Positions 46,601-62,272 of a DNA stretch of 64,000 nt are shown here, piece after piece. Source of the DNA: an uncultured bacterium. Its GTDB lineage: Bacteria > Bacteroidota > Bacteroidia > Chitinophagales > Chitinophagaceae. Made by a program: the position numbers and the translations under genes. Location of the stretch: positions 1-64,000 of the forward strand of contig CAIKEH010000019.1 in the NCBI GenBank assembly GCA_903826405.1, read 5' to 3'. Positions within the stretch are counted from its first letter, which is position 1, and every line of letters starts with the position of its first letter. The notes beneath the pieces were generated by a model that saw only the letters and a list, made by a program, of their open reading frames with translations, made no database searches and was not told where the DNA came from.

Positions 46601-48423
46601 ACCACCTCATCTCAGATAACCCAGGTTATGTTTTCAAGGCTGATGGCTATGCTGACATCCTCGATTCTTCCGACCGAAAAATGGATGTGCTGATCGACAT
46701 CCAGGAAACCAGAATCAAATTCCTGGAAACTTACCTGAAGGATATTTTTACAGATATCCGAGGTACAGCTGTAGGTCAATTGCGCATCAACGGTAACCTC
46801 CGCGAACCCGACCTGACGGGCAGTATCCAGATTCATAATGGATCCATGACGGTAGATTTCACCAAATGTCGTTACACCCTTCAGGATCCCATCATCAATT
46901 TCAAACCCGATGAGATCGACTTTGGGGAGATCACCGTACGCGACACCTACGGCAACACAGGTCTGGTGAATGGACGCCTGACGCATCATTTTTTCCGTAA
47001 TATGGGATTTGATTTCAAAGCCAGCTCGGATAAAATGCTCCTGCTGAATACCACCAAAACCGACAACAGCAGCTTTTATGGCAAAGCTATCGGCAAAACC
47101 CTCTTCCAATTCACGGGCCCCGAAGACGATATGCGCATGTTCATTAAAGGCGAACCTGTGGACAGCTCTTTCATCGACATTGTAACTTACGGAAGTTCGA
47201 AACAGAAAAGCGACGTTGACTACATAGTCTGGAAACAGTACGGCAGAGAAATGAATGTAGATTCCTTGAAACGGGCCGGCAGTAACCTGACCATTGACCT
47301 GGACCTGACCGCGAACCCGCTAGCTAAACTTCGTGTAGTACTCGATGAACAAACAGGGGATGTCATTTCTGCAACGGGAAAAGGCAACATGAAGATTCAT
47401 ACTGCGTCGAATCAGCCCATTACCATGACTGGTCGATATAACATCGATAACGGATTCTACAATTTCAACTTTCAGGATATATTCCAGAAACCTTTCAAAT
47501 TGGAACAAGGATCTGGAAGTTATCTGAGTTGGAATGGTGATCCGTATAACGCGGAGATCAATGTCAATGCGACTTATCTGGCTGAGAAAGTGAGGATGAG
47601 TACTCTTTTCGACGACCCCGCTTCGAGCACGATCTCGGGTGTTAATTCCGACGTGCTCAAGGAACTCAGTGACGTCAGTGTCATCTGCACCATAACGGGG
47701 TCGCTCAACCAACCCCAGACGGCATTCCAAATTGCCATGCCCGTAACCAGTTCGATCAGGAACAACCCCACCGTGGATGCCCGTATCAAGAACATCAACC
47801 GTGACCAGAACGAAGCGAGCAAGCAGTCCACATACCTCATTGTTTTCAAGAGTTTTGCCCCGCAGGCCGCCATCGTAACGAGCGACCTGAACACCACACT
47901 CATCAACAACACGATCAGCGGGGTGATCAATGCGATCTTGGCGAACAGCCTGCAAAACTTTTTCTACAAAGTATTCGGCTCATCCATGAATGTGAACTTG
48001 AATTACTCACGGATGATCACCAATGCAACGGGCACGGCTTCCGATCAGGGGCAGGGCGGACAGAATGTAAGGGAGAATGTGAGTCTTGAATTCATAAAAT
48101 CACTGATGGACAATAAACTTGTCATCACCCTCGGTAGCGACTTCAACTTTTCCGCCACGGGGAACAACACCATAACCAGTGCACAATCCTTTTTGTTCCT
48201 GCCGGATGTCAATGTGGAGTACAAGATCACGCCGGATGGCAAACTGAGAACCTCCTTTTTCTATCGAAGTAGCTTCGACGCCCTTTCCACTTCGGGAAGG
48301 CGCGACAGGACAGGAGGAAACATATCCTACAGAACTGAATTCAATACGCTATTCGGGAAGCCCGGGAAAAGAGAAGAATTGCCGATCACCAAGGATTCCA
48401 TGATCGAAAAGTTGATGCAGTGA
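43597..48423 (+). CDS. TamB-like translocation and assembly module protein
   Basis: 1608 residues as read from the ATG at 43597. One membrane anchor near the N-terminus (ISGFILAGLLLLIFLSGLLL, residues 19-38) is followed by a very long beta-helical, AsmA/TamB-type periplasmic part. The C-terminal domain (DUF490/TamB, about 1130-1590) includes GSLNQPQTAFQIAMP and ends near the outer membrane. Such proteins bridge the two membranes and are linked to lipid transport or outer-membrane protein assembly. A strong promoter ends 20 codons into nothing but this frame, so the real start may be a CTG at 43633 (LKKALKISG), just before the anchor. Bacteroidota TamB proteins are typically this long. Confidence 0.88.
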   Translation: MNDYLCTKPFLPLKKALKISGFILAGLLLLIFLSGLLLQTDWCQKLLVDKATQTLTRQLGSEVAVKKVSFSLFNRAYLEGTLIRDRKKDTLLYAGSLTISITDWFFLKKEKELHYLGLKDAKINLRRTDSIWNYQFIADFLTTTPKKQGTDRQPIQFSLKKIELGNLVLNYLDGWKGQDMVARIGHLVLIADSFDLAKKKIHASSVDLEQPYFSLYDYTGNRPDSLNVLKPDIITPGVLRWNPDEWELTAARLNLKNGEVRFLRETQDKLLDWFDPDHIVFDSINSSMQNVAFKKDTLSAFLNLSTHERSGFQVDRLEAQFTMHPEAMIFERLDIKTPYSHLKNYYSMRYKSFNSDMADFIHQVKLEGRFTGSTIGARDIAYFAPELSRWNDQKAHLDGRVTGTVDDLNSKNFTILYGQHTSINGDMRITDLPDLDKTVFDLHAERFQTDHGDMTSLAPELAQVKGLDLRSIGIIRTRGNFKGTLRDFHTDAELETALGNAQANVHMSIPHGKAPTYSGTLYTSGFELGRLIKDSSMGRIAFNGSVKGTGFDLKNASVDVNGKVNSITWNDYTYTNVDLHGILHDQRFNGQANIDDPNFKARLDGKFDLDPSMSQFDMTADVQRANLKPLNFTGADMRILGKFKLNFRGAKIDDMIGEASLYDVALTKNEETFVFDTLYLNAANAEGSKKVEIKSSDVDITLTGKYNISEIPATVRNYLNKYYPLYFSASSRPLPDQDLTLNATLHNISQYLPLFDRKLNGLDNSIIQAHINTNTRTLNVDAQIPFLSYNKTKISDISILAKGDLDSLRTQAKAGLMTVNDSLQFPFTTFTILSAGDVSDIHFSTAANQTINAADLSARITNLKDGLRFHFNPSSVVLNEKTWRIVKDGELTISRSLVEASEVRIVNGEQEIRISSIPSSTGYTNDLILNIRKVNLGDFIPILFKDPKIEGITSGDITVEDPLNKLRVYVNAQTEQTRFENDSIGTTSFNGYWDNARKYASYHLISDNPGYVFKADGYADILDSSDRKMDVLIDIQETRIKFLETYLKDIFTDIRGTAVGQLRINGNLREPDLTGSIQIHNGSMTVDFTKCRYTLQDPIINFKPDEIDFGEITVRDTYGNTGLVNGRLTHHFFRNMGFDFKASSDKMLLLNTTKTDNSSFYGKAIGKTLFQFTGPEDDMRMFIKGEPVDSSFIDIVTYGSSKQKSDVDYIVWKQYGREMNVDSLKRAGSNLTIDLDLTANPLAKLRVVLDEQTGDVISATGKGNMKIHTASNQPITMTGRYNIDNGFYNFNFQDIFQKPFKLEQGSGSYLSWNGDPYNAEINVNATYLAEKVRMSTLFDDPASSTISGVNSDVLKELSDVSVICTITGSLNQPQTAFQIAMPVTSSIRNNPTVDARIKNINRDQNEASKQSTYLIVFKSFAPQAAIVTSDLNTTLINNTISGVINAILANSLQNFFYKVFGSSMNVNLNYSRMITNATGTASDQGQGGQNVRENVSLEFIKSLMDNKLVITLGSDFNFSATGNNTITSAQSFLFLPDVNVEYKITPDGKLRTSFFYRSSFDALSTSGRRDRTGGNISYRTEFNTLFGKPGKREELPITKDSMIEKLMQ

Positions 48424-48430
48424 ATGAGGA

Positions 48431-49630
48431 TCAGGGTATCTCATGCCCCATCTTATCCCTTTTGGTACGCAGGTAGTTTTCGTTATGTGCGTTCGGCGCG
48501 ATACTGAGTGGAACCTTTTCCACGACTTCAAGACCATAGCCACTGAGCCCAGCTCTTTTGCGTGGATTATTACTGATCAGTCTGAGTTTGGTGGCACCCA
48601 GTGTCCGAAGGATCTGCGCCCCCACACCATAATCCCGCTCATCCATACCGAAACCGAGATGCAAGTTGGCTTCCACAGTATCCATTCCTTGCTCCTGTAA
48701 ACGATATGCTTTCAGTTTGTTCAGCAATCCGATCCCGCGTCCTTCCTGGTTCATATAAAGCACCACACCCTTGCCTTCAGCTTCCACCATCGCCATGGCC
48801 TGGTGCAATTGCTCTCCACAATCGCAGCGAAGGGAACCCAGGATGTCGCCCGTGAAACAGGAGGAATGAACTCTCGCCAGTACTGGCTCATCCAATTCCC
48901 ACTTCCCCTTCACTAAGGCAAGATGATCCCCACTCTCTGGATTATTCCTTTCCCGAAAAACGTGCAGGTTGAAATGTCCATATTTGGTAGGCATGTCCAC
49001 AACAACTACCTGTTCGATCAGTGAATCCGTCTTCAGGCGATATTCGATCAGATCTTTGATTGAAATGATCTTCATGTCGTATTGACTTGCGATTTCTTTC
49101 AATTCAGGGAGCCTCGCCATGCTTCCATCCTCATTCATGATCTCCACTAATACACCTGCAGGCTCAAAACCAGCGAGTCTGGAAAGATCGATCGTGGCTT
49201 CGGTATGACCGGAGCGGCGAAGCACCCCTCCCCTTTTGGCACGCAGAGGGAATATGTGTCCTGGACGACCCAGATCTTCCTTACGGGTAGCGGGATCAAT
49301 CAAAGCAAGAACGGTTTTCGACCTGTCGGAAGCGGAGATCCCTGTGGTGCACCCATGCCCGAGCAGGTCCACTGAAACCGTGAAGGCGGTTTCGTGCAAA
49401 GCCGTATTATCGTTGACCATGAGGTTGAGACCAAGTTCTTCACAACGGTCTTCTAATAAGGGAACGCAAATTAGACCTCGCCCGTATTTGCTCATGAAAT
49501 TGATCACTTCGGGTGTCGCATTGCGGGCTGCAGTGATGAAATCACCCTCGTTCTCACGATCCTCATCATCAACAACGATGACCATTTTCCCATTTCTGAT
49601 ATCTTCTATCGCACGCTCGATTGAATCCAT
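48431..49630 (-). CDS. ribBA: Bifunctional 3,4-dihydroxy-2-butanone-4-phosphate synthase / GTP cyclohydrolase II
   Basis: 399 residues from the ATG at 49630; the longer frame to 49681 lies above the promoter. RibB half: [11 protein letters not shown] near residue 23, [16 protein letters not shown] near 93 and [12 protein letters not shown] near 138. RibA half: the zinc site [19 protein letters not shown] near 262 (three Cys), [18 protein letters not shown] near 300 and [17 protein letters not shown] near 358. It makes both precursors of riboflavin, from ribulose 5-phosphate and GTP. No FMN riboswitch is visible upstream. Only 7 bases separate its stop from that of the TamB-like gene. Confidence 0.97.
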
Positions 49631-49647
49631 GTACCTGTTTGTGGCTG

Positions 49648-49681
49648 CAAAATTAACACAATTCCGCCACGTAAGGATCAA
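49648..49681 (-). promoter_or_regulatory. ribBA promoter
   Basis: On the minus strand, TTG (49681-49679), a 23-base spacer, then TAATTTTG (49655-49648), 17 bases before the ATG. The spacing is at the long end of the Bacteroidota range. It excludes the longer start at 49681. Confidence 0.55.
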
Positions 49682-49815
49682 TGTAATCCGTTGTGCATTC
49701 CCAGGCGGAGCTGCAGCAGGGATCAGTATCCTGCATGCCCGAACAAAACTGGCTGAAACCCAATAAAGCAGTAAGATGGTTCAAAAAAAGGCCTATACTC
49801 TTTGCCACCAACAGA

Positions 49816-50628
49816 TCAATCAACCTTACCAAAGGCCCAAGTTAGAAATTCCGGAATTGCCCGACCCCAAGTCTCTACATCATGCCTGCCATCCGGAAAT
49901 TCGAGATACCGAATGTCCTTGAAACGATCATACCCCTTACTGGACAATTCATCGATGAGGCCCATCGTGTCGTCTATGGAATCAATGATTCCATTGCCAT
50001 TTCGATCCATGGTCTCATCCAGCATGCCGGCCTGAAAGAAGAATCTCAACCCAGGTGAATATGGGCCGTTCCTGACCCGTTTATGCATGATCCGGTCCAT
50101 TTGCTCATTGTACCCATCGTCCAGCGCTTTAGATCTCCACCAGAGTGATCCACTGAAAACAGCCGCATGAACGAACTCACTTGGATGTGACCAGGCAATG
50201 TCCAATGCACTGAGGCCGCCGAGGGAAAAACCGGCAAAAGATTTATCGGAAAAATCAGGTTGACCGTACCGCTCTCTGAGGAAAGGGATCAACTCCCGAA
50301 AAACGAAGTGTACGTATGCATCCGCTTTGGCCCCTCTTCCCATATGATCAGGTTCCCCGGCAGTGCCATATTCCATTCTTCTATCGGGTCCACAATGTAT
50401 GCCTACGCAAATCAATGGCCGAATGAGCTCTTTGACATACAACCTGTCCAGTATCCTCTTGAAATTCATGACAGCAAGGTCCTGCCCATCATTGATGAGC
50501 AAAAGTCCGATGGGTCTTTGCGGCAAGGAGGACGGAAGATAAAGGTCCACAGGCACATCCCTGCTTAATTTCAAGGAAGGGATGACCTGTCGTTCGATCC
50601 GCACCCTGGATTCATCATTGGCTCCCAT
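49816..50628 (-). CDS. Esterase D/enterochelin-esterase-like alpha/beta hydrolase
   Basis: 270 residues from the ATG at 50628 (a TTG three codons upstream is less likely). No signal peptide. The putative-esterase fold (PF00756) shows LLINDGQDL near residue 48, the nucleophile elbow FAGFSLGGLSALDIAW near 135 (Ser in G-x-S-x-G), an acid near residue 210 and the catalytic His in PDGRHDVETWG near 253. Relatives hydrolyse siderophore esters, S-formylglutathione or sugar esters; the substrate is not clear. It is divergent from the ATP-grasp/GCS2 cluster, which suggests but does not prove a link. Confidence 0.85.
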   Translation of the reverse strand: MGANDESRVRIERQVIPSLKLSRDVPVDLYLPSSLPQRPIGLLLINDGQDLAVMNFKRILDRLYVKELIRPLICVGIHCGPDRRMEYGTAGEPDHMGRGAKADAYVHFVFRELIPFLRERYGQPDFSDKSFAGFSLGGLSALDIAWSHPSEFVHAAVFSGSLWWRSKALDDGYNEQMDRIMHKRVRNGPYSPGLRFFFQAGMLDETMDRNGNGIIDSIDDTMGLIDELSSKGYDRFKDIRYLEFPDGRHDVETWGRAIPEFLTWAFGKVD

Positions 50629-50688
50629 AAGGAGCAAAGATACTCAGAAAGGAATGCAGAAGAATAGCGATACGGAACAGTTCATTTA

Positions 50689-50720
50689 TTTGGTTTATTG
50701 ACCCTTAAAAAATACATTTG
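50689..50720 (+). promoter_or_regulatory. Promoter of the ATP-grasp/GCS2 operon
   Basis: TTTG at 50689-50692, a 20-base spacer, then TACATTTG at 50713-50720. Both elements match the consensus. It predicts a leader of about 80 bases before the ATG at 50807. Confidence 0.68.
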
Positions 50721-50736
50721 ACTGAGGCGCTGTGCA

Positions 50737-50788
50737 CATGTCACACCGGGATGAATGCCCACCATTCCTTCCCCGCATGTCACCCCGG
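50737..50788 (+). repeat. Direct repeat in the leader of the ATP-grasp/GCS2 operon
   Basis: CATGTCACACCGG (50737-50749) and CATGTCACCCCGG (50776-50788) are 13-mers with one mismatch, starting 39 bases apart, between the promoter and the first gene. They could be protein or RNA regulatory sites; no known motif is recognised. Confidence 0.45.
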
Positions 50789-50806
50789 AACTTCAAACTA
50801 CTTCAC

Positions 50807-51757
50807 ATGAAAAAGATCGGCATTTTATTCGGCAAAGAGAGGTCTTTCCCTTCGGCTTTCGTGGAAAGGGTGAATAGCAAGAACATTCAAGGAATCGTGG
50901 CCGAACCGGTGTCCATAGACAAGGTCATGCAAGGCGAGGATTCCGGATACGCGGTCATCATAGACAGGATCTCCCAGGATGTTCCATTCTACCGCGCTTT
51001 CCTGAAAAATGCTGCGATCAGTGGGACCGCAGTGATCAACAACCCCTTCTGGTGGAGTGCTGATGAGAAGTTCTTCAACAATGCCTTGGCCACCAAGATC
51101 GGCGTTCCTGTGCCCAAAACCGTCATACTCCCTTCCCGGGAATTACCGGACGATACTTCCGAGGAATCTTTCAGCAATCTGACCTATCCTCTCGACTGGA
51201 AGGGGATCTTCGACTATGTTGGCTTTCCCGCATACATGAAACCTTTCGCCGGAGGTGGCTGGAAGAGTGTTTACCGTCTGGAAAGCAGGGATGAATTTTT
51301 CTCCAAACATTCCGAAACCGGTCAATTGGTCATGCTGCTTCAGGAGGAGATCGTTTTCCAGGAGTATTATCGATGCTATTGCATTGGAAGGAAACATGTC
51401 AGGATCATGCCCTACGAACCGCGGAACCCCCACCACCTTCGCTATGTCGCGCCTTTCTCCCCTTCAGATGAAATGCAGGGCAAGATGAAGGACATTGTCC
51501 TGCGTATCAACAACTACTTGGGATATGACTTCAACACGGTGGAACTGGCCGTCAGGGATGGCATCCCCTATGCCATAGATTTCTGCAATCCCGCACCGGA
51601 TGCCGACCTGAAAAGCGTTGGAGAGGAAAATTTCGAATGGGTCGTGGAAAACGCCGCCAATTATGCGATCGAAAGGGCAACTGCACACCAAACGGGCATG
51701 GACAATCTGAGCTGGGGCGAATACCTGAAAAAAAGTATCCGACAAGAACAACTGTGA
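50807..51757 (+). CDS. ATP-grasp domain ligase (RimK/glutathione-synthetase-like)
   Basis: 316 residues from the ATG at 50807, where a natural N-terminus (MKKIGILFGKERSFP) begins; upstream in-frame ATGs lie in the leader. ATP-grasp features: Lys145 in AYMKPFAGGGWKSV, VMLLQEEIVFQEYYRCY near 180, VELAVRDGIPYAIDFCNPAPDAD (245-267) with acidic and Asn metal-binding positions. ATP-grasp ligases join a carboxylate and an amine through an acyl phosphate. It is followed 21 bases later by a GCS2-type ligase, a pairing expected for stepwise peptide-like synthesis. The product is unknown. Confidence 0.82.
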   Translation: MKKIGILFGKERSFPSAFVERVNSKNIQGIVAEPVSIDKVMQGEDSGYAVIIDRISQDVPFYRAFLKNAAISGTAVINNPFWWSADEKFFNNALATKIGVPVPKTVILPSRELPDDTSEESFSNLTYPLDWKGIFDYVGFPAYMKPFAGGGWKSVYRLESRDEFFSKHSETGQLVMLLQEEIVFQEYYRCYCIGRKHVRIMPYEPRNPHHLRYVAPFSPSDEMQGKMKDIVLRINNYLGYDFNTVELAVRDGIPYAIDFCNPAPDADLKSVGEENFEWVVENAANYAIERATAHQTGMDNLSWGEYLKKSIRQEQL

Positions 51758-51778
51758 ACCATCGAAAGAAGATCATCT

Positions 51779-52891
51779 ATGCCAAATTTCAACTATAAAC
51801 ATTTCACTCTTGGGGTCGAAGAGGAATACATGGTCATGGACCCGAACACCCGTGAACTGAGAAGCCACGAACAGAAGATCGTCTCGGAAGGACAGAAGAT
51901 CATCCGCGATAAGGTGAAAGCGGAGATGCACCAAGCTGTAGTGGAAGTGGGTACCGATATCTGTCAGAATATCGATGAAGCCTATAAGGATGTTATGACG
52001 CTCAGGCATACCATCAGCAGCGTGGCCGGGGATCTGGGCTTTTGGATGGGCGCCTCCGGCACCCACCCCTTCAGCCATTGGGAGAGCCAACTCATCACAG
52101 ATCATGTCCGGTACCGTGAGATCGTCGACGAGATGCAGGAAGCGGCAAGAAGCAATCTGATATTCGGCCTGCATGTCCACGTAGGAATGCCAGATCGGGA
52201 AATGGCCATTCATATCGCCAATTCAGCAAGGTATTTCCTGCCCCATGTTTTCGCCCTGAGCACCAACTCCCCTTTCTGGGAGGGCCGTTTGACCGGTTTC
52301 AGATCGTTCCGGACCAAGGTTTTTGACAAGTTCCCCCGAACGGGAATACCAGACTACTTTGACAGCTATAGTGCCTATGAGAATTATGTCAACCTGCTCA
52401 TCAAGACCAACTGCATAGACAATGCAAAGAAGATCTGGTGGGATCTTCGAGTACACCCCTTCTTTGGCACCGTGGAATTCCGCATCTGCGATGTCCCCCT
52501 TACTGCGGAAGAGACCATCGCCATAGCCGCATTATTCCAATGCATCTGCGCCAAACTGTACAAATTGCGTTCCCGTAACCTGAATTTCATCATCTACCCG
52601 CGTGCATTGGTGAATGAGAATAAATGGAGGGCCTCCCGCTACGGGATCGATGGAAGGCTGATCGATTTCGGGAAGGAGGAAGAGGTCAACACCAGGGTCT
52701 TGATCCACGAACTGCTGGATTTCGTGGATGATGTGGCCGATGACCTAGGCTGTCGACATGCCCTTGGACTGGTGCTGAAGATTCTGGAGAAAGGAACAGG
52801 TGCAGACCGCCAACTTAAAGTCTTCGAACAGACAAGAAACCTCGTCAGCGTTGCAGACTACATCCATACACAATTTCTGGCGCCTTTATGA
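51779..52891 (+). CDS. GCS2/YbdK-type carboxylate-amine ligase
   Basis: 370 residues, close to E. coli YbdK (372). Family marks are TLGVEEEYMVMDPNTREL (residues 10-27, Glu-rich metal site), GTHPFSHWESQLIT near 97, HVHVGMPDREMAIH near 133 and FGTVEFRICDVPLTAEETIAI near 228. The fold is that of glutamine-synthetase-like glutamate-cysteine ligases, which form gamma-glutamyl amides with ATP. YbdK has only weak glutamate-cysteine ligase activity, so members of this family probably use other substrates. It sits 21 bases after the ATP-grasp gene, so the two enzymes likely act in one pathway. Confidence 0.92.
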   Translation: MPNFNYKHFTLGVEEEYMVMDPNTRELRSHEQKIVSEGQKIIRDKVKAEMHQAVVEVGTDICQNIDEAYKDVMTLRHTISSVAGDLGFWMGASGTHPFSHWESQLITDHVRYREIVDEMQEAARSNLIFGLHVHVGMPDREMAIHIANSARYFLPHVFALSTNSPFWEGRLTGFRSFRTKVFDKFPRTGIPDYFDSYSAYENYVNLLIKTNCIDNAKKIWWDLRVHPFFGTVEFRICDVPLTAEETIAIAALFQCICAKLYKLRSRNLNFIIYPRALVNENKWRASRYGIDGRLIDFGKEEEVNTRVLIHELLDFVDDVADDLGCRHALGLVLKILEKGTGADRQLKVFEQTRNLVSVADYIHTQFLAPL

Positions 52892-52956
52892 CTAACGCAT
52901 GAACTGCTCATGACAAAACCCATTTATGCGCTTTCAGACGAGCAGATTACGACAGT

Positions 52957-54015
52957 TCAGTTCTTCACCATATTCCTATCTACGGCATGGATGAAATCAA
53001 TGACCCCACTCATGAAGATCTGTTGGTCGTCATACATGGCGAGATGACTGCCATTAGGGCAATATAGAAAACTTCCTTGTTTTACCTGAGTACTCATCCA
53101 TTTCATATGTTCGGGATCCATCGTATCATGTTCAGCCCCTACAGTGAGGGTAGGTACGACGATCTCCTTCAACCGATCACGGATGTCCCATTTCGCCAGC
53201 CTGCCAGATATGCCGAACTCACTGGGCCCCTGCATCATGGTATAGACCACATTGTTCGCATGCTTGAGCGACCGATTGAACCCATCAGGCCAATCCTCCA
53301 GGCGACAGATATGCTTCTTGTAGAAGTTCGGTATGAGCAATTCCATGTAACGCGGATTGGCAAAATCTCCTTTGCTCTCAAGAGCCTTGACTTCCTTCAA
53401 AACCGCAGGGTCCATTTCTTTCGATAATACTTGCTCCGCATATTTCCCGTATTCCGGACAGCTGGACATCATGTTGCATATGATCATGCCCTTCATGTTA
53501 CTCTGGTACTTCAAGGCATATTCCATGGCCAGGATTCCACCCCAGGAATTTCCCAGGAGATAGAAATTGTCTTTGCCCATGCCCAATGCCTTTCTGACCT
53601 GTTCCACTTCCTCCACGAAACGACCGGTCGTCCACAGGCTGCTATCTGCAGGCTGGTCAGAGTAATAAGATCCCAACTGATCATATTCATAAAACTCGAA
53701 TCCTTGCTGTGGGAAGAAGCTTTCGAAACATTCCATATACTCATGTGTCATCGCCGGGCCACCATGAAGTAGAAGGACCTTGATCCGGGGATTATTCCCG
53801 AAACGTTTAGTCCAAACTTTGAATTTTCCAACCGGGGTTTCGACAGGTATCATGCGCACTCCGGCGGTTTGAACTCCGCTATCCTGTGGAGCGAAATAAG
53901 CTGCAAGGGAAGGCAACGAAGATCCTGAACCAGAATGGGTGTCCTGCTGGCGGCAGGAATAGAAAATGGTGCAGAAGAAGAAAACTATGAATAAGGTAAT
54001 TTTAAAGTAAGTCAT
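52957..54015 (-). CDS. Lipoprotein proline-iminopeptidase-like alpha/beta hydrolase
   Basis: 352 residues. The N-terminus is a lipoprotein signal with a lipobox (IFYSC, Cys21), so the enzyme should be membrane-anchored in the periplasm. The hydrolase core has VLLLHGGPAMTHEYM near residue 90, the nucleophile LLGNSWGGILAMEYAL near 165, an Asp in GAEHDTMDP near 300 and the His in NGSHLAMYD near 328. It belongs to the proline iminopeptidase branch (HGGPG-like oxyanion loop), which removes N-terminal residues from small peptides. It lies on the opposite strand inside the ATP-grasp/GCS2/GATase cluster and may process the same small peptide. Confidence 0.85.
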   Translation of the reverse strand: MTYFKITLFIVFFFCTIFYSCRQQDTHSGSGSSLPSLAAYFAPQDSGVQTAGVRMIPVETPVGKFKVWTKRFGNNPRIKVLLLHGGPAMTHEYMECFESFFPQQGFEFYEYDQLGSYYSDQPADSSLWTTGRFVEEVEQVRKALGMGKDNFYLLGNSWGGILAMEYALKYQSNMKGMIICNMMSSCPEYGKYAEQVLSKEMDPAVLKEVKALESKGDFANPRYMELLIPNFYKKHICRLEDWPDGFNRSLKHANNVVYTMMQGPSEFGISGRLAKWDIRDRLKEIVVPTLTVGAEHDTMDPEHMKWMSTQVKQGSFLYCPNGSHLAMYDDQQIFMSGVIDFIHAVDRNMVKN

Positions 54016-54136
54016 AATTGACGGGTTATACTATAAAGATATGAATGCGATTACAATTTAAGGAATGAAGGTAATGACCCCAAAAGATGACATTAGCCAT
54101 ATTCCTGATTCAGCTGCGGGCTTGTAAAAAAACGAT

Positions 54137-54144
54137 TAGTTTTG
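54137..54144 (+). promoter_or_regulatory. Candidate -7 box directly before the GATase start
   Basis: TAGTTTTG matches TANNTTTG and ends 5 bases before a GTG at 54150. No clear -33 TTG was found. If used, the transcript would be leaderless or nearly so. Confidence 0.45.
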
Positions 54145-54149
54145 CTTCC

Positions 54150-55004
54150 GTGAAAAAATCAGATCGACCCTTCAGGATAGCCATACTTGACCTGTATGAT
54201 GGGGTCGCCAATCAGGGTATGCGATGCATACGTGACATCCTGAAGCAATTCGCTCAAGAACAACAGATCAACCTGATCACTGAAGAATTTGAGGTTCGAA
54301 AAAGAATGGAATTCCCTGGCCTGGATCATGATGCATACATTTCCAGCGGCGGGCCCGGAAGTCCCTTGGATTCTGAAGGCAGTGATTGGGACAATGCCTA
54401 TTTTCTCTGGTTGAAACTCGTGGAGGACTGGAATGCGGAGAGTCCGGTCGAGGCCAAAAAACATGTCTTTTTCATCTGCCATTCCTTTCAACTCGCCTGC
54501 CGCCATTACAGAATAGGGCATGTCACCAAAAGAAGATCAACATCCTTCGGTGTCTTTCCCATGCACATGCTGGAAGATTGCAGGGATGAGCAGATCTTTG
54601 ATGGCCTCCAGGACCCTTTCTATGCAGTTGACAGTCGGGATTATCAGGTCGTCCAACCCCACCACCACAGGATACTAGAGATGGGAGCCAAGATACTCTG
54701 CATTGAGAAGGAAAGACCACATATCCCATTGGAAAGGGCACTCATGGCCATGCGTTTCAATTCGCATATGGTCGGCACTCAATTCCATCCCGAGGCAGAC
54801 GCGATCGGCATGAGCATGTATCTGCAAACAGAGGAGAAAAAAGATAGCGTGATCGAAAGCCATGGCTATGAAAAATGGGAATCCATGATCAGCCAGTTGA
54901 ATGACCCGGACAAGATCCTGTTCACTTATTCCCGCATCCTTCCAAATTTCCTTCTTCAGGCGTGGAATAACAGGGATCAAAATGATCCGATCTCAGGATC
55001 TTAG
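54150..55004 (+). CDS. Class I glutamine amidotransferase-like protein
   Basis: 285 residues if it starts at the GTG at 54150 (VKKSDRPFRIAILDLYDG); the frame is open from an ATG at 54087, but that part lies above the -7 box and lacks domain features. The triad is complete: Cys110 in FFICHSFQLAC, His213 and Glu215 in VGTQFHPEADAIG, with SSGGPGSPL forming the oxyanion-side loop. The domain releases ammonia from glutamine, or works as a gamma-glutamyl hydrolase in PuuD-like members. No synthetase domain is fused, so the partner is probably one of the ligases in the cluster. Confidence 0.85.
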   Translation: MKKSDRPFRIAILDLYDGVANQGMRCIRDILKQFAQEQQINLITEEFEVRKRMEFPGLDHDAYISSGGPGSPLDSEGSDWDNAYFLWLKLVEDWNAESPVEAKKHVFFICHSFQLACRHYRIGHVTKRRSTSFGVFPMHMLEDCRDEQIFDGLQDPFYAVDSRDYQVVQPHHHRILEMGAKILCIEKERPHIPLERALMAMRFNSHMVGTQFHPEADAIGMSMYLQTEEKKDSVIESHGYEKWESMISQLNDPDKILFTYSRILPNFLLQAWNNRDQNDPISGS

Positions 55005-55065
55005 TGGTTGTATTGACACAAGCATTTGAATATATTTTCACTAAATTCCTGTTTAAAGCAATGTC

Positions 55066-56259
55066 ATGGTCCCGTTCATAAGAAAAGCATTCAATGACCG
55101 TTTTACAGAGAGCCGTTACAGCAACTTTCTGGAAGACCTGAACAGCAAGTACCCCGGGGCCATTGAATTCCGCATTGCCGAAACCCCCATATTCGTCGAC
55201 ACGGGTTTTCGGGACAAGATGATCGAATGCAGTGAAGGGATCATCGACCTGATCATTTCTCCGGAATACAGGCAAATCACCGAACGATCGATACCCAAAA
55301 GGGATTATGTTCCCCATGAGAACGGACATTGCCATATGATCGCTCTCGACTTCGGAGTTTGTGAAAATGAAGCAGGGGAGCTCGAACCACAACTCATCGA
55401 ATTGCAAGGCTTCCCCACTCTCTTTGCCTTCCAAGCCTATTACCCTGATGTAGTGGAAAAACATTTCGACATTCCAGAGGAATATTCACATTATTTTGGA
55501 GGGCATGACATCACAAGCTATCTGGAGGAAATGCGCAAACTGATTTTAGGTGAACATGCACCTGAAAATGTCATCCTATTGGAGATCAAGCCCCACCTGC
55601 AAAAGACAAGAGTGGATTTTTATTGTACTCAGGATTATTGGGGGATCAGACCCGTCTGCCTGACTGAATTGATACTGGAAGGCAAAGACCTCTTTTACCA
55701 ACGCGATGGAATAAAAACGAAGATCAATAGGATATATAACAGGGTCATATTCGACGATTTGCATGCACAGCAAAATGAACTGGGAGCAGTCCCTGACATC
55801 AGGCAGGTACTTGACGTGGAGTGGATCCCCCATCCGAACTGGTTCTACAGGATCAGCAAATTCACCCTTCCTTACATTATAAGTCCTTATGTACCTCAAA
55901 CATTCTTCCTGGACAAATTAAAGGATTTACCCGCCGATCTGGAAAACTATGTACTCAAGCCGCTTTATTCCTTCGCAGGGAAAGGGGTGGTAATAGACAT
56001 CCGTCCGGAAGACATCAAGGAATTAAAAGATCCCGAAAACTGGATCCTTCAAAGAAAAGTAAAGTATGCCAACGCCATCGAAACGCCGGACGGACCTGCA
56101 AAAGCGGAAATCAGACTGATGTACATATGGAAGGATGGCGATAGCCGTCCTGTTCTGATGACGAATCTCGCCCGATTGAGCAAGGGCAAAATGATCGGAG
56201 TACGATATAATATGGACAAGAAATGGGTGGGCGGAAGCGTGGCCTATTTTGAAAAATGA
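55066..56259 (+). CDS. Divergent ATP-grasp-like protein
   Basis: 397 residues, ATG start, no signal peptide. I recognise only an ATP-grasp-like C-terminal half: ENYVLKPLYSFAGKGVVIDI near residue 295 (nucleotide-binding Lys and Gly-rich loop), WILQRKVKYANAI near 325, AEIRLMYIWKDG near 348 and TNLARLSKGKMIGVRYN near 368. The N-terminal half has a conserved-looking LIELQGFPTLFAFQAYYP near residue 110, reminiscent of the glutathionylspermidine-synthetase-like branch. It follows the GATase by 61 bases and precedes the cupin by 17. In context it is a second amide-bond-forming enzyme for the same product. Confidence 0.65.
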   Translation: MVPFIRKAFNDRFTESRYSNFLEDLNSKYPGAIEFRIAETPIFVDTGFRDKMIECSEGIIDLIISPEYRQITERSIPKRDYVPHENGHCHMIALDFGVCENEAGELEPQLIELQGFPTLFAFQAYYPDVVEKHFDIPEEYSHYFGGHDITSYLEEMRKLILGEHAPENVILLEIKPHLQKTRVDFYCTQDYWGIRPVCLTELILEGKDLFYQRDGIKTKINRIYNRVIFDDLHAQQNELGAVPDIRQVLDVEWIPHPNWFYRISKFTLPYIISPYVPQTFFLDKLKDLPADLENYVLKPLYSFAGKGVVIDIRPEDIKELKDPENWILQRKVKYANAIETPDGPAKAEIRLMYIWKDGDSRPVLMTNLARLSKGKMIGVRYNMDKKWVGGSVAYFEK

Positions 56260-56276
56260 AACTTTAAAACAGCAAT

Positions 56277-56597
56277 ATGCAAAACATTTTGAACATTCCC
56301 GTTAAATGGCTCACTGAAGGTGTGACAGGACATTATGTACATGGGGAGAGGATGACACTGGGTTTGGTAGAGCTGAAGCAAGGCAGCATTGTTCCGCTAC
56401 ATAGCCATCCACATGAGCAGATCACCTTCATCCTTTCCGGAAAATTGCAGATGGAGATCGGAGGCAAAACCCTTGTACTGGAGCCCAACATGTACCACCT
56501 GATCCCAGGCGATGTGATCCATAGCGCACTGGCATTGACCGATTGTTCGTTGATTGATGCCTTTCAACCCGTTCGGGAAGACTACAGGACTCAATGA
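56277..56597 (+). CDS. Cupin domain protein
   Basis: 106 residues forming a single cupin barrel. Metal ligands are visible in VPLHSHPHEQITFILSGKLQ (two His and Glu/Gln, residues 41-60) and the second motif PGDVIHSALAL near 78 with the last His. Small cupins act as metal-dependent dioxygenases, isomerases or sensors; no subfamily can be assigned. It begins 17 bases after the ATP-grasp-like gene and is probably its operon partner. It converges with the MFS gene. Confidence 0.85.
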   Translation: MQNILNIPVKWLTEGVTGHYVHGERMTLGLVELKQGSIVPLHSHPHEQITFILSGKLQMEIGGKTLVLEPNMYHLIPGDVIHSALALTDCSLIDAFQPVREDYRTQ

Positions 56598-56643
56598 TGA
56601 ATTTTTTTCAGTGCTGAATCCTGAGTCCTTTCGCTGGAACTGT

Positions 56644-57846
56644 TCATCCACGCTCCGTTCCCACCCGGGCCAGAAAGAAGACCACCAACATACATACTGT
56701 TGCTGAAATGCCGAATGCCCATGCCGGCCCAAGTACCATCCAGGCTGCTCCAGCCCACGAACTCGCCAACAAAGCTGCAATGCTCTGGAAACCGGTATAG
56801 GTCCCAATGGCAGAACCTGTCTCATCCTTAGGAACAACATTGGATATCCATGCCTTTGCCACCCCTTCGGTGGCAGCAGCATAAAGTGCATATATCCCGA
56901 AAAGCAATAGAAAATACCAGAAGCCACCTTCAAAGGCAAAACCAGCATAGGTCATGCAGAAAAATAGCAAGCCGGCGAGCATCACTTTTTTCATCCCGAT
57001 CCTGTCCGCCAACTTACCCAAGGGGTAAGCCAATAATGCATAGGCGAGATTATAGAATATATATATGCCAATGACGACCGTGTCGCTATGGCCCGCCTCC
57101 CGAATCCGCAAAAGAAGTAAGAGGTCTGAACTATTGACCAATGCGAACACCAATAAACCCGCAACCAATTTTCGATAACTGCTGGTGGACGTCGACCAGT
57201 ATCTGAATCCTTGCAAAAATCCGAAAGCCTTTTTCCCGGTCTGCGGTGAGGATGGCTTTTCTTTAAGTAGCAGCGTAAGCAGAATCGCCGCTGCTCCGGG
57301 AATGAAGGCTATCAGGAAAAGCGGCCTGTAGTTGGCAGGAGCGAAATAGAGGTATATCAATGCCAGGCCAGGGCCAATGACGGCACCCAATGTATCCAAA
57401 CTGCGATGAAAACCGAAGACAGTCGCCTTATGCGCGGCATCAGTTTCCGCACTCAGCATGGCGTCGCGGGCTCCTGTACGCAACCCCTTTCCTACCCTAT
57501 CTGTGGTTCTGGCTGCGAACACCCATCCAACGACCGATGAAAAGGCAAGCATCGGTTTGGACAAAGCACTCAACCCGTATCCATATCTCACGAATGGCAA
57601 TCGCTTACCGATATGATCCGACCACGCACCGAACCAAGCTTTACCCAAACCGGCAACTGCTTCTGCGATACCTTCCAGCATGCCAATGGCCAACACGGTG
57701 AATCCCACTGAACGCAGGTAAACAGGCATCATGGGATATAACATCTCACTGGCCATGTCCGTGAACAGGCTGACCAGAGACAGTATCCAAATATTGCGCG
57801 TGAGTATGCGCTGCGGGCCATTGAACTCTTTGACAACAGATGACAT
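56644..57846 (-). CDS. Major facilitator superfamily transporter
   Basis: 400 residues from the ATG at 57846 (the frame opens four codons earlier with TTG). Twelve hydrophobic segments are apparent, with the MFS signature loops GAWSDHIGKRLPFVRYGYG (between helices 2 and 3) and GKLADRIGMKKVMLAG (between 8 and 9). RTTDRVGKGLRTGARDAM is typical of a widespread group annotated as unknown-specificity efflux or permease proteins. Convergent with the amidoligase cluster, so it could export the product, but its own promoter and strand differ. Confidence 0.88.
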   Translation of the reverse strand: MSSVVKEFNGPQRILTRNIWILSLVSLFTDMASEMLYPMMPVYLRSVGFTVLAIGMLEGIAEAVAGLGKAWFGAWSDHIGKRLPFVRYGYGLSALSKPMLAFSSVVGWVFAARTTDRVGKGLRTGARDAMLSAETDAAHKATVFGFHRSLDTLGAVIGPGLALIYLYFAPANYRPLFLIAFIPGAAAILLTLLLKEKPSSPQTGKKAFGFLQGFRYWSTSTSSYRKLVAGLLVFALVNSSDLLLLLRIREAGHSDTVVIGIYIFYNLAYALLAYPLGKLADRIGMKKVMLAGLLFFCMTYAGFAFEGGFWYFLLLFGIYALYAAATEGVAKAWISNVVPKDETGSAIGTYTGFQSIAALLASSWAGAAWMVLGPAWAFGISATVCMLVVFFLARVGTERG

Positions 57847-57954
57847 AAGGGTCACCAATATAGTGAATACAGCAGGATGAAGGAACTGAATATCAATTTA
57901 GGAACAAGAATCTCTTGACAGATCACGAAAGATCCGTAGACGCCAACCACGACC

Positions 57955-60522
57955 TCATTTGATCCGGAACCTGAATCCGGTGTATAGCATCCGACCATTG
58001 ATAGGACCCCAAACCATGGATGCATCGAACCAAGGTCCGAAAGGATCGTCCCCTGCAATGATGGGATCTTTCTGTTTGAAACCAGTCAGGTTCTCTCCGC
58101 CAACATACCATTCAAATGCTCCTGCCTTACCGAATTTCTTGCTGGCCTGGGCATTCATCAAGAAGTAAGAAGGCGATATACCTTCCCGCCGGTATGGAAG
58201 CGGATTCGACGAGGTAACAGGGATCCGTTTGGAACCATTCCAATTGAGGGTGTAATCAAATGTCCATCCACCCTTCGCATAAGCCAGATTCAGGAAACCA
58301 CGGTTCTTTGATGTATACGGTCGATCCAAAAGCACTCCCCCGTAGGTAGACTTGACATCATAAAAACGATAGGCCATACGTACATCGAAATGGGGAAGAA
58401 TGGTCGACGAGAGCTCAACCTGGAAACTATTGGAAAAGGACTTCCCGGAAAGGTCATAGAAATCGACCTTCCTTGCATCCTCCATATCCACCACCACCTG
58501 ACTGACGAAATCGTTCCGGAAAAAATCCAGACCCAGGGTGAAGTTCCTGTTGCCTAATTTGAATTTCTGATCAAAGCTGATGCCTTTGTTCCAGGCCACC
58601 TCTGGTTTTAAACCATATGCCCCGGTGAACCCTTTCCCTAAAACGTTCCACACCCTGGAGCTGGCCATGATCCCCATGTTCTCCGCAAAAATGTTTGCCG
58701 TGCGCTGTCCCCTACCAGCACTGATCCGAAATGTCCCATCTTTCCAAGGCTCGTAGCGTAAATGTATACGGGGTGTCAGGAAAGCTCCGAATAAATTGTG
58801 CCAATCTCCACGCAAGCCTGCCACCATGCTGAAGGTTTTGGATGGCGTCCAAGTATACTCGCCAAATACACCAGGTACCGTTTCCGTCCGTTGCCATATA
58901 CGGCCGATGAACCTTTCATCATATCGGTCACTGACCATACTGAGGCCGACCCTGTATTTATGATTGGTGGATCCGATGATGGATTGATAGATCAGGTTGG
59001 CATAAACATTATCCTGCTTAGCAGAATATGGATTCTGCCCGAAATAAGCATCCTGATCATGGTGGAATGAAGACAACTGAAGACCGATACTCTGGTACTG
59101 CTTGCCCGGAAATACATAACCCAGTTTGCTGAACCCTTCATAACGGCGGGTTCGGATACCGATACCATAACGATCCGTCCCGAACTTATCCCGGGATGGT
59201 TCAAAGTTGTTCTCTCCACCTGTTTTATCGTCCATCAGCACCTTTCCACCAACCTGGAACATCCATCCTTTCGCATCAGCATATGTCCATCGATTGATGG
59301 CACTGAACAAGTTTCCCGTCGGCTGGTCCAGAAAACCATCCCCATTCTCATCCACTTTTCGGGAAAGCATATCGTCATGCAACATCAAGAGTGTCGACCA
59401 ATGCTTGGCCACCTTTTGACTGAAATTGAGATTAACATCCGCCTTCCCGAATTCGTTGATATAGCCGTTCACGAATAATTTATCCGTCTTTTCTGGCTTC
59501 TTCAATTCTACATTGATCTGACCCGCGATGCTTTCAAATCCATTCGCAACCGAACCTATGCCTTTGGTCAGTTGTATGGACTCTATCCATGGACCAGCGA
59601 TGCTGTTCAACCCCATGGCAGTAGCCAGACCTCTTGGGCCGGGCAGATTCTCCACTGTGAGTTGAGTGTAACTGCCACTCAACCCAAGAAGCTGAATCTG
59701 CTTACTTCCCGTCAAGGCATCATTGAAGGATACGTCGACCGAAGGATTCGTCTCAAAACTCTCACTGAGATTGCAACAGGCCGCTTTGAACAATTCACGC
59801 TCTGTCATGACCTGGGTTCTTACCGGCTCCAGTGTAGCAATATAATTAGACCGCATCCTTCCGTTTATCTTCACCTCCTTCAACTGGTGGCCTGAAGCCA
59901 GAACTATACGCATCTCCTCACCTGTTCTTGCTGTGATCGTGTCTGGTTGATATCCAGTATAACTGATCACTAGGCGTTGGGTCGAAGGCTCAGATGCTAT
60001 CAGGAACACCCCATTGCTGTCGGAGAGAACTCCTTTGGGCGTACCCAGCCAGTTCACACTTGCACCATATAAGGGATGGAATCTTCCCTTGTCGTCGGAC
60101 TCCATCACCACTCCTTTGATCAGACCACTATTGATGCTCATGGGCGGGATCGACGAACTCACATCCTTGGCATGTACATTTCCTTTCCTGTACAAGCAGC
60201 ACTCCGGGAGCGCCGCGTAGACCCCATCGTCGGCTTTAAAGAGTTGGGTGTCATGGCCAACGCCTGCGATCAGCTTCTGAATTTTTTCTGGATTCGTCCT
60301 GGAAGGAAGGTAACGGAGTGTCAATTCCTGAGTATTGGCATCCCAGAAAGCCTCGACCACGCCACGCACCTTTGCAGCTGTCTCAATACGGTCCTGGCAT
60401 TGACCGCAATTGCCATGGACCATGAATTTGACCAAACTATCTCTTTCCGATGTCGTTTGACCAAATGCATGACCCATCGCCTGCATAAGCAGACATATGT
60501 ACACTAAGCATGTTTTCGACAT
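57955..60522 (-). CDS. TonB-dependent receptor with N-terminal HMA-like metal-binding module
   Basis: 855 residues with a signal peptide (1-21, ending HAFGQ). Residues 31-112 form a heavy-metal-associated-like module: VHGNCGQCQDRIE (Cys39, Cys42) and LPECCLYRK (Cys108-109), closely matching the secreted HMA protein encoded upstream. A carboxypeptidase-like regulatory domain follows (about 135-210), then the plug, with KAACCNLSESFETNPSVDV near 250, and a 22-strand-type barrel to the C-terminus. It should import a metal or metal chelate across the outer membrane using TonB energy. The Cys-rich parts and neighbours suggest copper or a similar thiophilic ion. ATG start. Confidence 0.9.
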   Translation of the reverse strand: MSKTCLVYICLLMQAMGHAFGQTTSERDSLVKFMVHGNCGQCQDRIETAAKVRGVVEAFWDANTQELTLRYLPSRTNPEKIQKLIAGVGHDTQLFKADDGVYAALPECCLYRKGNVHAKDVSSSIPPMSINSGLIKGVVMESDDKGRFHPLYGASVNWLGTPKGVLSDSNGVFLIASEPSTQRLVISYTGYQPDTITARTGEEMRIVLASGHQLKEVKINGRMRSNYIATLEPVRTQVMTERELFKAACCNLSESFETNPSVDVSFNDALTGSKQIQLLGLSGSYTQLTVENLPGPRGLATAMGLNSIAGPWIESIQLTKGIGSVANGFESIAGQINVELKKPEKTDKLFVNGYINEFGKADVNLNFSQKVAKHWSTLLMLHDDMLSRKVDENGDGFLDQPTGNLFSAINRWTYADAKGWMFQVGGKVLMDDKTGGENNFEPSRDKFGTDRYGIGIRTRRYEGFSKLGYVFPGKQYQSIGLQLSSFHHDQDAYFGQNPYSAKQDNVYANLIYQSIIGSTNHKYRVGLSMVSDRYDERFIGRIWQRTETVPGVFGEYTWTPSKTFSMVAGLRGDWHNLFGAFLTPRIHLRYEPWKDGTFRISAGRGQRTANIFAENMGIMASSRVWNVLGKGFTGAYGLKPEVAWNKGISFDQKFKLGNRNFTLGLDFFRNDFVSQVVVDMEDARKVDFYDLSGKSFSNSFQVELSSTILPHFDVRMAYRFYDVKSTYGGVLLDRPYTSKNRGFLNLAYAKGGWTFDYTLNWNGSKRIPVTSSNPLPYRREGISPSYFLMNAQASKKFGKAGAFEWYVGGENLTGFKQKDPIIAGDDPFGPWFDASMVWGPINGRMLYTGFRFRIK

Positions 60523-60592
60523 GATCTTTTGTTGAAGGATGATAAATGGACGAATCGCCCTTTCAACCTGTATTTGTAGGAATGACGGATGA

Positions 60593-61072
60593 TTATTTCA
60601 ACAGACGGCCAACCTCGTGATCGAGTTCACGGCCTTCTTTATTCACTGCCCTGACAACCCCATCCTTATCCAGCAGGAAAGATGCCGGTATGGCGTCCAC
60701 CCCGTAGGTGATCGTGGAAGGTGCATACCAGCCTAGCTGGTCCACTACATGCACCCAAGTGAGGTTGTCGTTACGGATGGCTTTTTTCCAATCATCCTTG
60801 TTCTTATCGATGGACACACTGAAGATCTCCAATCCTTGCTCGTGATACTTCTCATACAACTTGACCAGTGTCGGGTTATTGTGCCTACAGGGTCCGCACC
60901 AGCTGGCCCAGAAATCAAGCAGCACAACCTTTCCCTTGAATGAAGTCAATGAGATGGTCGAGTCCGAAAGTCCGGGCAAACTGATCTCCGGGGCGGACTG
61001 GCCCTTGCGTATCTGAGCCCTGCCACCATAGTTTGCAGCAAGGCACAGCGTTATTATGAGAAGGTATTTCAT
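60593..61072 (-). CDS. Secreted thioredoxin-like (ResA/TlpA-type) protein
   Basis: 159 residues from the ATG at 61072, which starts a signal peptide (MKYLLIITLCLAANYGGRAQ); the frame extends to 61111 without a better start. The TlpA/ResA-like fold has FWASWCGPCRHN (Cys59, Cys62) and the cis-Pro region DAIPASFLLDKDG near 128. These proteins keep periplasmic cysteines reduced, for example in cytochrome or copper-centre maturation. Placed between an HMA-like protein and the HMA-TonB receptor, a job in keeping their CxxC and CC motifs reduced is a reasonable inference. Confidence 0.9.
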   Translation of the reverse strand: MKYLLIITLCLAANYGGRAQIRKGQSAPEISLPGLSDSTISLTSFKGKVVLLDFWASWCGPCRHNNPTLVKLYEKYHEQGLEIFSVSIDKNKDDWKKAIRNDNLTWVHVVDQLGWYAPSTITYGVDAIPASFLLDKDGVVRAVNKEGRELDHEVGRLLK

Positions 61073-61227
61073 TTGCAACATTCCTTTTTCACAAAAAGGC
61101 TCCCGAACCACTTGAGAAAAACGCTTATAGATCTCTTCAGTGTCATGATATTCCTATTCCATTCAGGTTAAATGGGGCCGGGACAAATAGACAAGCCATC
61201 TACCCCGACTCCTTTTGATGTTCATAT

Positions 61228-61779
61228 TCAGGATTTCTTGCAGCAACCCATTGCATCAGCCTTGGCGGTATGATTACCGGAGGAAGCAGCCTTGTCACAG
61301 GACTTTCCTGCACAGCAATCAACTTTGGCCGTGCTTTTACAGGAACCGCCGCAGCAACCGGTGTCCTTACAGGCTTTATCATCTTTCCCACAACCCTCCT
61401 TGTCACAACACATGGCTACTTTTTCTTGAACTGATGCCTGCTTCCGGTCATATTGGCAACAAGAAGGAAGACTCTTATACGCATCATCGGTTGACTTCAC
61501 ATCTCTTGTATCGTAACCTGAACCAGCGACTGCCTGCTGTATGAGCAGGGCCGTTGTTTTGGATCCATCGTAGGAAATGCTGAGCATTTTAGATTTTTCG
61601 TCCCAGGTGGCAGAACTAGCACCTGCACCTTTCGCAGCACCTTCTATGGCCTTCTTGCACATGCCGCAATTGCCATGAACAGGAATAGACTCGCTGCTCG
61701 TTGCAGGCTGCTGAGCAAATGCATTGGCTGAAATGAAAATAATGGCAAAAAGGGAAATGATATGATTTATCGTTTTCAT
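61228..61779 (-). CDS. Secreted HMA-like protein with Cys-rich tail
   Basis: 183 residues with a signal peptide (1-22, ending NAFAQ). The HMA-like module (30-112) has VHGNCGMCKKAIEG (Cys38, Cys41) and LPSCCQYDRK (Cys107-108). The 70-residue tail adds twelve more cysteines in CC, CxxxC and CCGGSC patterns (MCCDKEGCGK, GCCGGSCKS, DCCAGKSCDK, GCCKKS), like a small metallothionein. Sixteen cysteines in the mature protein imply a periplasmic metal binder or buffer. The module aligns along its length with the N-terminus of the TonB receptor two genes downstream. ATG start. Confidence 0.88.
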   Translation of the reverse strand: MKTINHIISLFAIIFISANAFAQQPATSSESIPVHGNCGMCKKAIEGAAKGAGASSATWDEKSKMLSISYDGSKTTALLIQQAVAGSGYDTRDVKSTDDAYKSLPSCCQYDRKQASVQEKVAMCCDKEGCGKDDKACKDTGCCGGSCKSTAKVDCCAGKSCDKAASSGNHTAKADAMGCCKKS

Positions 61780-61856
61780 GATTATGTTTTTGAAAATAAA
61801 TTAATTGGATCTTACCTCAAAAAAGGAAAGTTCGATAACTGAAAAACCAGTGAAAA

Positions 61857-62234
61857 TCAAACCCTGTATATGCAGAATAAAGACTGGAAGGAATGTCCAG
61901 ATAAAGGTGGTGAGTGGTCGGCTGAGGAATGGATAGATCTCGAAAGCGCCAAAGTCTGAGGGACATCGGCCGTATAGCTCGGTATGGACACTGCTACTTT
62001 GGGAATAGCCACAAAAGAAGATGTGGTGTTCTGGTTGTCCTGGATCTTCAGGATTTTCACCTCATCCTTGCAACAACCGCTGTTATCCATACCGCAGTTG
62101 CTGCACTTCTTGCTGTCATGGGTCAGCAGACCGAGAGAAGCCAGTTTACCCATGCAATAATGGACGTTCACCGTCACCCCGCTGGAGATCAGCAGGTAAA
62201 AGGTGGCCAATATGAGCAATGCATATCTTTTCAT
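61857..62234 (-). CDS. HYC_CC_PP family protein
   Basis: 125 residues from the ATG at 62234, which begins a signal/anchor helix (MKRYALLILATFYLLISSG). The name-giving motifs are all present: HYC in VNVHYCMGKL (residues 24-33), KKCSNCGMDNSGCCKDE (43-59), and PP in DHSPPLSG near residue 108. The family is typical of Bacteroidota and often lies beside HMA proteins and TonB receptors; its activity is unknown, but the Cys/His content fits metal binding. An earlier start at 62270 is excluded by the promoter overlapping that position. Confidence 0.85.
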   Translation of the reverse strand: MKRYALLILATFYLLISSGVTVNVHYCMGKLASLGLLTHDSKKCSNCGMDNSGCCKDEVKILKIQDNQNTTSSFVAIPKVAVSIPSYTADVPQTLALSRSIHSSADHSPPLSGHSFQSLFCIYRV

Positions 62235-62242
62235 GGATTGTA

Positions 62243-62272
62243 CAAAGGTATAACGAGATGGGCTTTCCACAA
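62243..62272 (-). promoter_or_regulatory. Promoter of the HYC_CC_PP / HMA / TonB gene cluster
   Basis: On the minus strand, TTG (62272-62270), a 19-base spacer, then TACCTTTG (62250-62243), only 8 bases before the ATG at 62234. Both elements match the Bacteroidota consensus, so the message would have almost no leader. Confidence 0.7.

Follow-up and report, generated by a model that had tools for sequence, protein, structure and literature searches.

A 64,000-nucleotide stretch from an uncultured bacterium of the Chitinophagaceae (Bacteroidota; contig CAIKEH010000019.1 of assembly GCA_903826405.1), called the window throughout, holds four core genes whose comparison across genomes supports one conserved system. 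They encode two ATP-grasp ligases (ATPg1 and ATPg2), a YbdK-type carboxylate-amine ligase (GCS2) and an enzyme of class I glutamine amidotransferase fold (GATase). By a modest balance of the evidence, we favor the reading that Bacteroidota share a conserved pathway for making and turning over a small peptide or peptide-amide that resembles glutathione. The argument is built on the genes, their families, predicted folds, order and joint presence, and on the replacement of ATPg2 in some lineages, all of which are documented here.

The core genes lie on the forward strand. ATPg1, a RimK/Ddl-type ligase, occupies 50807 to 51757 (the longest open reading frame (ORF) runs from 50732), and GCS2 follows after 21 bases (51779–52891). 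The GATase (54087–55004), a probable gamma-glutamyl hydrolase or transferase or an ammonia donor, precedes the 397-residue ATPg2 (55066–56259), a divergent ligase predicted to have the glutathione-synthetase/GspS/YgiC fold. The original prediction had named six genes here, adding an iminopeptidase-like hydrolase and a cupin, and all six were confirmed.

Conservation and gene order

Joint presence was scored in 60 genomes of the family and in 296 genomes of the phylum. All four core genes occur in 40/60 family genomes, none in 13 and a mixture in 7. In this family sample a 33% ATPg1 (G014) and an ATPg2 fragment (G043, 1.5e-9) were counted as present. In the mixed genomes GCS2 alone is missing in two (72% and 95% complete), ATPg1 alone in three and ATPg2 alone in one, and the last has a distant ATPg1 only. 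Across the phylum, 50 genomes carry all four genes and 176 carry none. Genomes with ATPg2 (91 of the 296) also encode ATPg1 in 88 cases, GCS2 in 86 and GATase in 55, and ATPg1 is found in 69 of the 70 genomes with GATase. Five families of the phylum hold both states: among the genomes listed, 26 carry at least three of the four genes, and 18 have none or, once, a single distant gene.

Besides the window genome, ATPg2 occurs in 44 family genomes and in 82 genomes outside the family; neighborhoods were fetched from 40 and 50 of these, respectively, hand-picked for spread. The fetched stretches stop at contig ends, some of them short, and the ORF caller took the longest non-overlapping ORFs. Outside the family, the order ATPg1-GCS2-GATase-ATPg2 is consecutive in 13 loci (in one of them a small ORF separates GATase from ATPg2). 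Five loci have ATPg1-GCS2-ATPg2, and four more have this order with an inserted M29-type peptidase, once with a further small ORF. Four loci hold three-gene variants and one holds GATase and ATPg2 only. In 26 of these 50 loci ATPg2 adjoins two or more further core genes on its own strand. Family loci have a GATase gene close to ATPg2 in 26/40 cases and all four genes together in 9/40. Adjacent GATase-ATPg2 pairs overlap in 7/41 cases, five of them by 4 bases.

Loci from named genomes were the best 80 of 584 confirmed ATPg2 relatives, and the nearest among these come from Chitinophagaceae records and other Bacteroidota; Chitinophaga, Niastella and Sediminibacterium are represented. Some are cut by contig ends; near ATPg2 they contain GATase in 68, GCS2 in 17 and ATPg1 in 16. 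Core genes were found in 0/20 other regions of the same genomes, a control that measures background only, since its reference families were derived from ATPg2 loci. A neighborhood search with the 397-residue protein had been proposed as a check on the original prediction, with genes scattered and never together as the outcome that would count against it. That outcome was not found.

Replacement of ATPg2 by a second ATP-grasp family

Fifteen of the 70 GATase genomes lack ATPg2. Eleven such loci were opened, and in six of them the ORF caller placed a gene of 451 to 483 residues between ATPg1 and GATase. The CP_ATPgrasp_2 family (PF14403) scored 37.3, 28.8 and 23.7 bits in three tested copies (cut-off 32), one of which is over the cut-off. 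A profile built from four copies was then run against the 296 genomes. It hit exactly the GATase genomes that lack ATPg2 (15/15, of which 11 lie outside the profile seeds), plus one weaker hit in a genome that bears ATPg2. In 14 genomes the PF14403-type gene, which belongs to a separate sequence family, stands in the position of ATPg2, flanked by ATPg1 and GATase with gaps of 3 to 357 bases. In the fifteenth it adjoins ATPg1, with GATase on a different contig.

The best solved structure for the PF14403-type protein is 3n6x (3e-8), which is also the top Foldseek match of ATPg2. Profile alignment of the two families gave an hhalign E value of 0.001 over 257 columns at a probability of 21.5%. One ATP-grasp has thus been exchanged for another at the same pathway position, and this position seems to require a GspS-like ATP-grasp, supplied by two families. 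With the replacement counted, only 5/108 ATPg1 genomes lack a partner of either type, all with distant homologs (27–42% identity), and 9/102 GCS2 genomes do, all with homologs of 36–41% identity. Three loci (L246, L247 and L248) contain distant ATPg1 homologs (32–39% identity to the window protein), in genomes where searches detected no other core gene; these homologs are probably a separate ATP-grasp subfamily. At L229 the operon of ATPg1, CP-ATP-grasp and GATase is followed downstream by a third ATP-grasp (PF13535; 11136–12314).

Individual enzymes

ATPg2 gave no hit to PF03738 or PF14403 at E 0.5 and so falls outside the curated families. PF03738 (GSP_synth) is detected in 17/39 relatives, best at 5.2e-5 and probably under the cut-off. 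The predicted structure places the protein, previously without a family annotation, in the glutathione-synthetase/GspS fold: Foldseek matches it over its whole length to YgiC, YjfC, glutathione synthetase and GspS. By this model the 397-residue protein is an ATP-grasp, in agreement with the divergent ATP-grasp originally proposed, for which the lack of such a fold would have been damaging. The structure prediction called for at that time finds its nearest solved relatives to be ligases of gamma-glutamyl peptides and of peptides with polyamines. Against a profile of nine YgiC-family proteins the alignment is collinear over 231 columns (E 0.0005), with an hhalign probability of only 31%; three control profiles gave E values of 0.51, 0.0084 and 0.067 over 27 to 51 columns.

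ATPg1 most likely starts at the ATG at 50807, as most homologs begin MKKIGILFG. Its similarity to the rimK_fam model TIGR00768 is weak (2.9e-6; 26.8 bits, below the cut-off of 143.4), which leaves it outside that family as curated. The ATPg1 profile matched the D-Ala-D-Ala ligase 3r23 at 0.0014. Five residues (K170, R214, E271, D283 and N286, numbered from 50732) are invariant in 26/26 members, and a weak R2K_2 similarity appears in 15/26 members (best 0.0059).

GCS2 is a YbdK-type ligase. It matches PF04107 at 1.2e-60 and scores above the NCBIfam cut-offs (NF010039, 519 bits against 371; TIGR02050, 296 against 176), and its family profile matches the YbdK structure 1r8g at 4.8e-66. The GhExE motif, as given in the available text of PMC2588565, is kept, with G12, E14 and E16 invariant in 21/21 members. 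A PF04107 search of the whole window genome (3.6 Mb) found this one GCS2.

The GATase matches PF00117 (1.5e-7; 31.8 bits against a cut-off of 22.8), as do 28/28 members. The triad Cys131, His234 and Glu236 is invariant in all 28 aligned members, which places the protein in class I and bears out the intact Cys-His-Glu first read from the window. Class I enzymes usually have the nucleophile elbow C-x-G. Here the elbow departs from that form and is C-[HY]-S in 28/28 rows. In structure comparison of the GATase model, gamma-glutamyl peptidase 1 (GGP1), homoserine O-succinyltransferase (HTS) and GMP-synthase rows are tied.

Proposed pathway and alternatives

In the pathway that we favor, GCS2 would couple glutamate, probably through its gamma-carboxylate, to an amine, and ATPg1 would add an amino acid as a further residue. 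ATPg2 would activate the carboxylate of the peptide with ATP and then cap it with an amino acid or an amine. For the GATase-fold enzyme we favor hydrolysis or transfer of the gamma-glutamyl group of the same metabolite; it might instead supply ammonia to ATPg2. Esterase-type hydrolases may trim the metabolite. A GCS2 beside a ligase of the glutathione-synthetase/GspS fold follows the logic of glutathione and glutathionylspermidine. The substrates, the reaction order, the product and the activity of each enzyme in the pathway are what we infer from these families and folds. The original prediction was that the genes make and then trim or recycle a metabolite unlike glutathione, either gamma-glutamyl or otherwise derived from amino acids. 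It gains partial support from the conserved system, from the fold relatives of ATPg2 and from the tie of the GATase model with GGP1; its reactions and product remain predictions.

A narrower proposal is made tentatively. Bacteroidota could make an undescribed gamma-glutamyl peptide of the glutathione or glutathionylspermidine type, capped with an amine or amino acid, beside bacillithiol. Its synthesis could be the physiological role of their YbdK-type GCS2, and the GATase-fold enzyme could be a dedicated gamma-glutamyl peptidase of its cycle. To our knowledge it is not settled what YbdK-type ligases act on in the cell; here one such ligase is linked to three partner genes, in a phylum that includes cultured, non-pathogenic species. 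In another, proteobacterial family, a carboxylate-amine ligase of GCS2 size is linked to a GATase-like thiol peptidase, which the available text of PMC2588565 reads as peptide-metabolite synthesis.

Several observations weigh against a single pathway of this kind. No GATase homolog was found in 36/91 ATPg2 genomes, and four genomes keep ATPg1, GATase and ATPg2 without GCS2, which means that the system does not strictly depend on GCS2 for gamma-glutamylation. ATPg2 stands without another core gene in 23/50 phylum loci, within fetched stretches of which some are short. In the family, ATPg1 is near ATPg2 in only 9/40 loci, and the two halves of the system are mostly apart. The tie between HTS, GGP1 and GMP-synthase folds gives no choice between a hydrolase, an acyltransferase and an ammonia donor. 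The 15 genomes with the replacement, from nine family codes, may share one origin. Ancestry also bears on the family counts. On a tree of the bacillithiol synthase BshC (one protein, quick method, 54/60 family genomes, 8/51 inner branches starred), the observed pattern needs two changes for GATase, three for ATPg2, five for ATPg1 and four for GCS2, and 11/12 GATase absences fall within one starred clade. Five of the six pair tests could not have reached significance. The P values for co-occurrence within the family were at first taken as strong; they were dropped after the tree gave GATase only two changes, since shared ancestry means that they are not independent evidence.

Shared descent of this kind, or chance, might by itself have brought unrelated genes together. 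The profile of joint presence is inflated by common ancestry, and the ATPg1-GCS2 and GATase-ATPg2 pairs are separate in most family genomes. We nonetheless consider this very improbable, as distant families keep the same gene order, the genes are present or absent together within the five families listed, and ATPg2 is replaced by another ATP-grasp at the same position. A ribosomal-peptide (graspetide) cluster would also contain ATP-grasp ligases, yet it is the most improbable explanation we considered. The compact operons, with abutting or overlapping core genes, leave little room for a precursor, and no short ORF of at least 60 residues was seen to recur in the neighborhoods.

Catabolism offers a different use of the same enzymes. 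Amines or peptides would be gamma-glutamylated by GCS2, processed by hydrolases and freed of the glutamyl group by the GATase-fold enzyme, as in the gamma-glutamylputrescine (Puu) route. We judge it unlikely: three ATP-consuming ligases are many for salvage, the ligases stay while the hydrolases vary by lineage, and no recurrent oxidase or dehydrogenase was recognized in the core of the neighborhoods (a short-chain dehydrogenase-like gene, c7, is in 14 loci, and its place is not fixed). The linked ligases could instead tag proteins with peptides. Ligases of the R2K clade and of the GCS2 fold (PafA) have been proposed as protein taggers in the available text of PMC4431377 and PMC2588565, and the R2K_2 similarity of ATPg1, weak as it is, would fit. 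No conserved small tag or target gene recurs among neighborhood ORFs of at least 60 residues, and the nearest ATPg2 folds are mostly those of proteins that we take to function as small-peptide ligases, which makes tagging quite unlikely. A low-molecular-weight thiol in place of glutathione or bacillithiol would share the glutathione logic of a GCS2 with a glutathione-synthetase fold. Against it, BshC was matched in 57/60 family genomes (55 over the cut-off), with or without the system and including the window genome. This spread suggests that another thiol already serves, and the pathway product is probably not the main thiol; we rate the thiol reading as decidedly doubtful.

Relation to known systems

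The closest characterized relatives differ in sequence and setting. ATPg2 shares 14–15% identity with Escherichia coli YgiC/YjfC and 10–12% with GspS, has no amidase domain and no PF03738 match, and unlike all three is encoded next to GCS2, ATPg1 and a gene of GATase fold. Relative to glutathione or homoglutathione synthesis with a eukaryotic-type glutathione synthetase, the window system adds ATPg1 and the GATase-fold enzyme, and its genomes also carry bacillithiol synthase. The window GATase differs from GGP1 and gamma-glutamyl hydrolase in tying equally with homoserine O-succinyltransferase and a GMP-synthase subunit, and in its elbow.

Iyer and colleagues reportedly surveyed linked peptide-ligase operons in 2009, and the window system shares the general theme of ligase linkage with such operons. 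Linked ATP-grasp and COOH-NH2 ligases are a known general theme in the available text of PMC4431377. The gene set is not named in the literature titles and abstract openings searched, and a closed-access survey may hold it. The component families and the theme of linked ligases are known. The present gene combination, the ATPg2 fold and the replacement were not met in the literature found and appear to be new.

Accessory and neighboring genes

The iminopeptidase and the cupin do not belong to the core, so that only four genes of the originally proposed six-gene cluster stand as one system. The proline-iminopeptidase-family hydrolase (52957–54015, reverse strand; TIGR01250, 2e-106; with a lipoprotein-like N terminus as read from the sequence) is in 5/40 family loci and 0/50 phylum loci and is a lineage-specific insertion in the cluster. 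The small accessory cupin (56277–56597, forward strand; PF07883, 1.1e-11) is in 11/40 and 0/50. The esterase or alpha/beta hydrolase at 49816 to 50637 (reverse strand; PF00756, 1.9e-24), divergent from the ligases, was absent from the original prediction, yet it is a recurrent neighbor. It has tblastn matches in the stretches of 8/40 family loci and 12/50 phylum loci (four weak, 23–31% identity), and among solved structures it comes closest to fungal EstB (3.1e-6) and to siderophore esterases. In 18 loci ATPg1 is preceded by another putative alpha/beta hydrolase, one with weak Pfam similarity.

An Amidohydro_3-type (YtcJ-like) gene lies just before a lone ATPg2 in eight loci of distant relatives (L130, L137, L139, L140, L142, L143, L144 and L147), overlaps it in six of the eight and is in the stretch of 9/40 family loci. 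These genes were grouped by similarity to one family-tested copy, and may be true partners in some lineages.

Among GCS2-less genomes, 7/16 have PF04107 matches, with a fuller hit in G087 (2.9e-25). Three candidate substitutes were opened (L250, L252 and L253). They are GCS2-like proteins of about 640 to 655 residues, with a C-terminal part that is CBS-domain-like by eye, and were set aside as probably another family.

Mobile carriage was not detected: ATPg2 and ATPg1 had no tblastn match in 72,556 plasmid records, and none of seven pattern-matched stretches of IMG/VR viruses encodes a relative. The window contains no tRNA, no RNA element reached its gathering score in 48000 to 60600, and generic sigma-70 and terminator scans gave matches no better than in shuffled sequence. 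A scan with what we take to be the Bacteroidetes-type promoter consensus found two matches in the 64 kb window against 0.45 expected. One, TTTG-N20-TACATTTG (50689–50720, forward strand), lies upstream of ATPg1, and its first base is the start of the interval in the original prediction.

The region downstream of the cluster (57955–63959) encodes a TonB receptor, a redoxin, a Porin_10 protein and a small protein that looks secreted. The small protein has a metal-binding-like motif by eye and no Pfam match. At least two of nine such neighbor families, of which several relate to metals or the envelope, are in 18/41 family loci. Most of the nine are missing from 20 regions taken at random from the same genomes (redoxin occurs in three, RND in two, MFP in one). 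Outside the family few loci carry them (L133 has three), and a link of the cluster to metal resistance was therefore rejected in favor of a local synteny block. Upstream, ribBA (riboflavin synthesis; 48431–49681) recurs in the stretch of 2/40 family loci and 1/80 named loci (the best 80 of 584). At L240, where ATPg2 is elsewhere in the genome, an aromatic amino acid lyase (12542–14119; PF00221, 634 bits) adjoins ATPg1 and an S10 carboxypeptidase adjoins GCS2.

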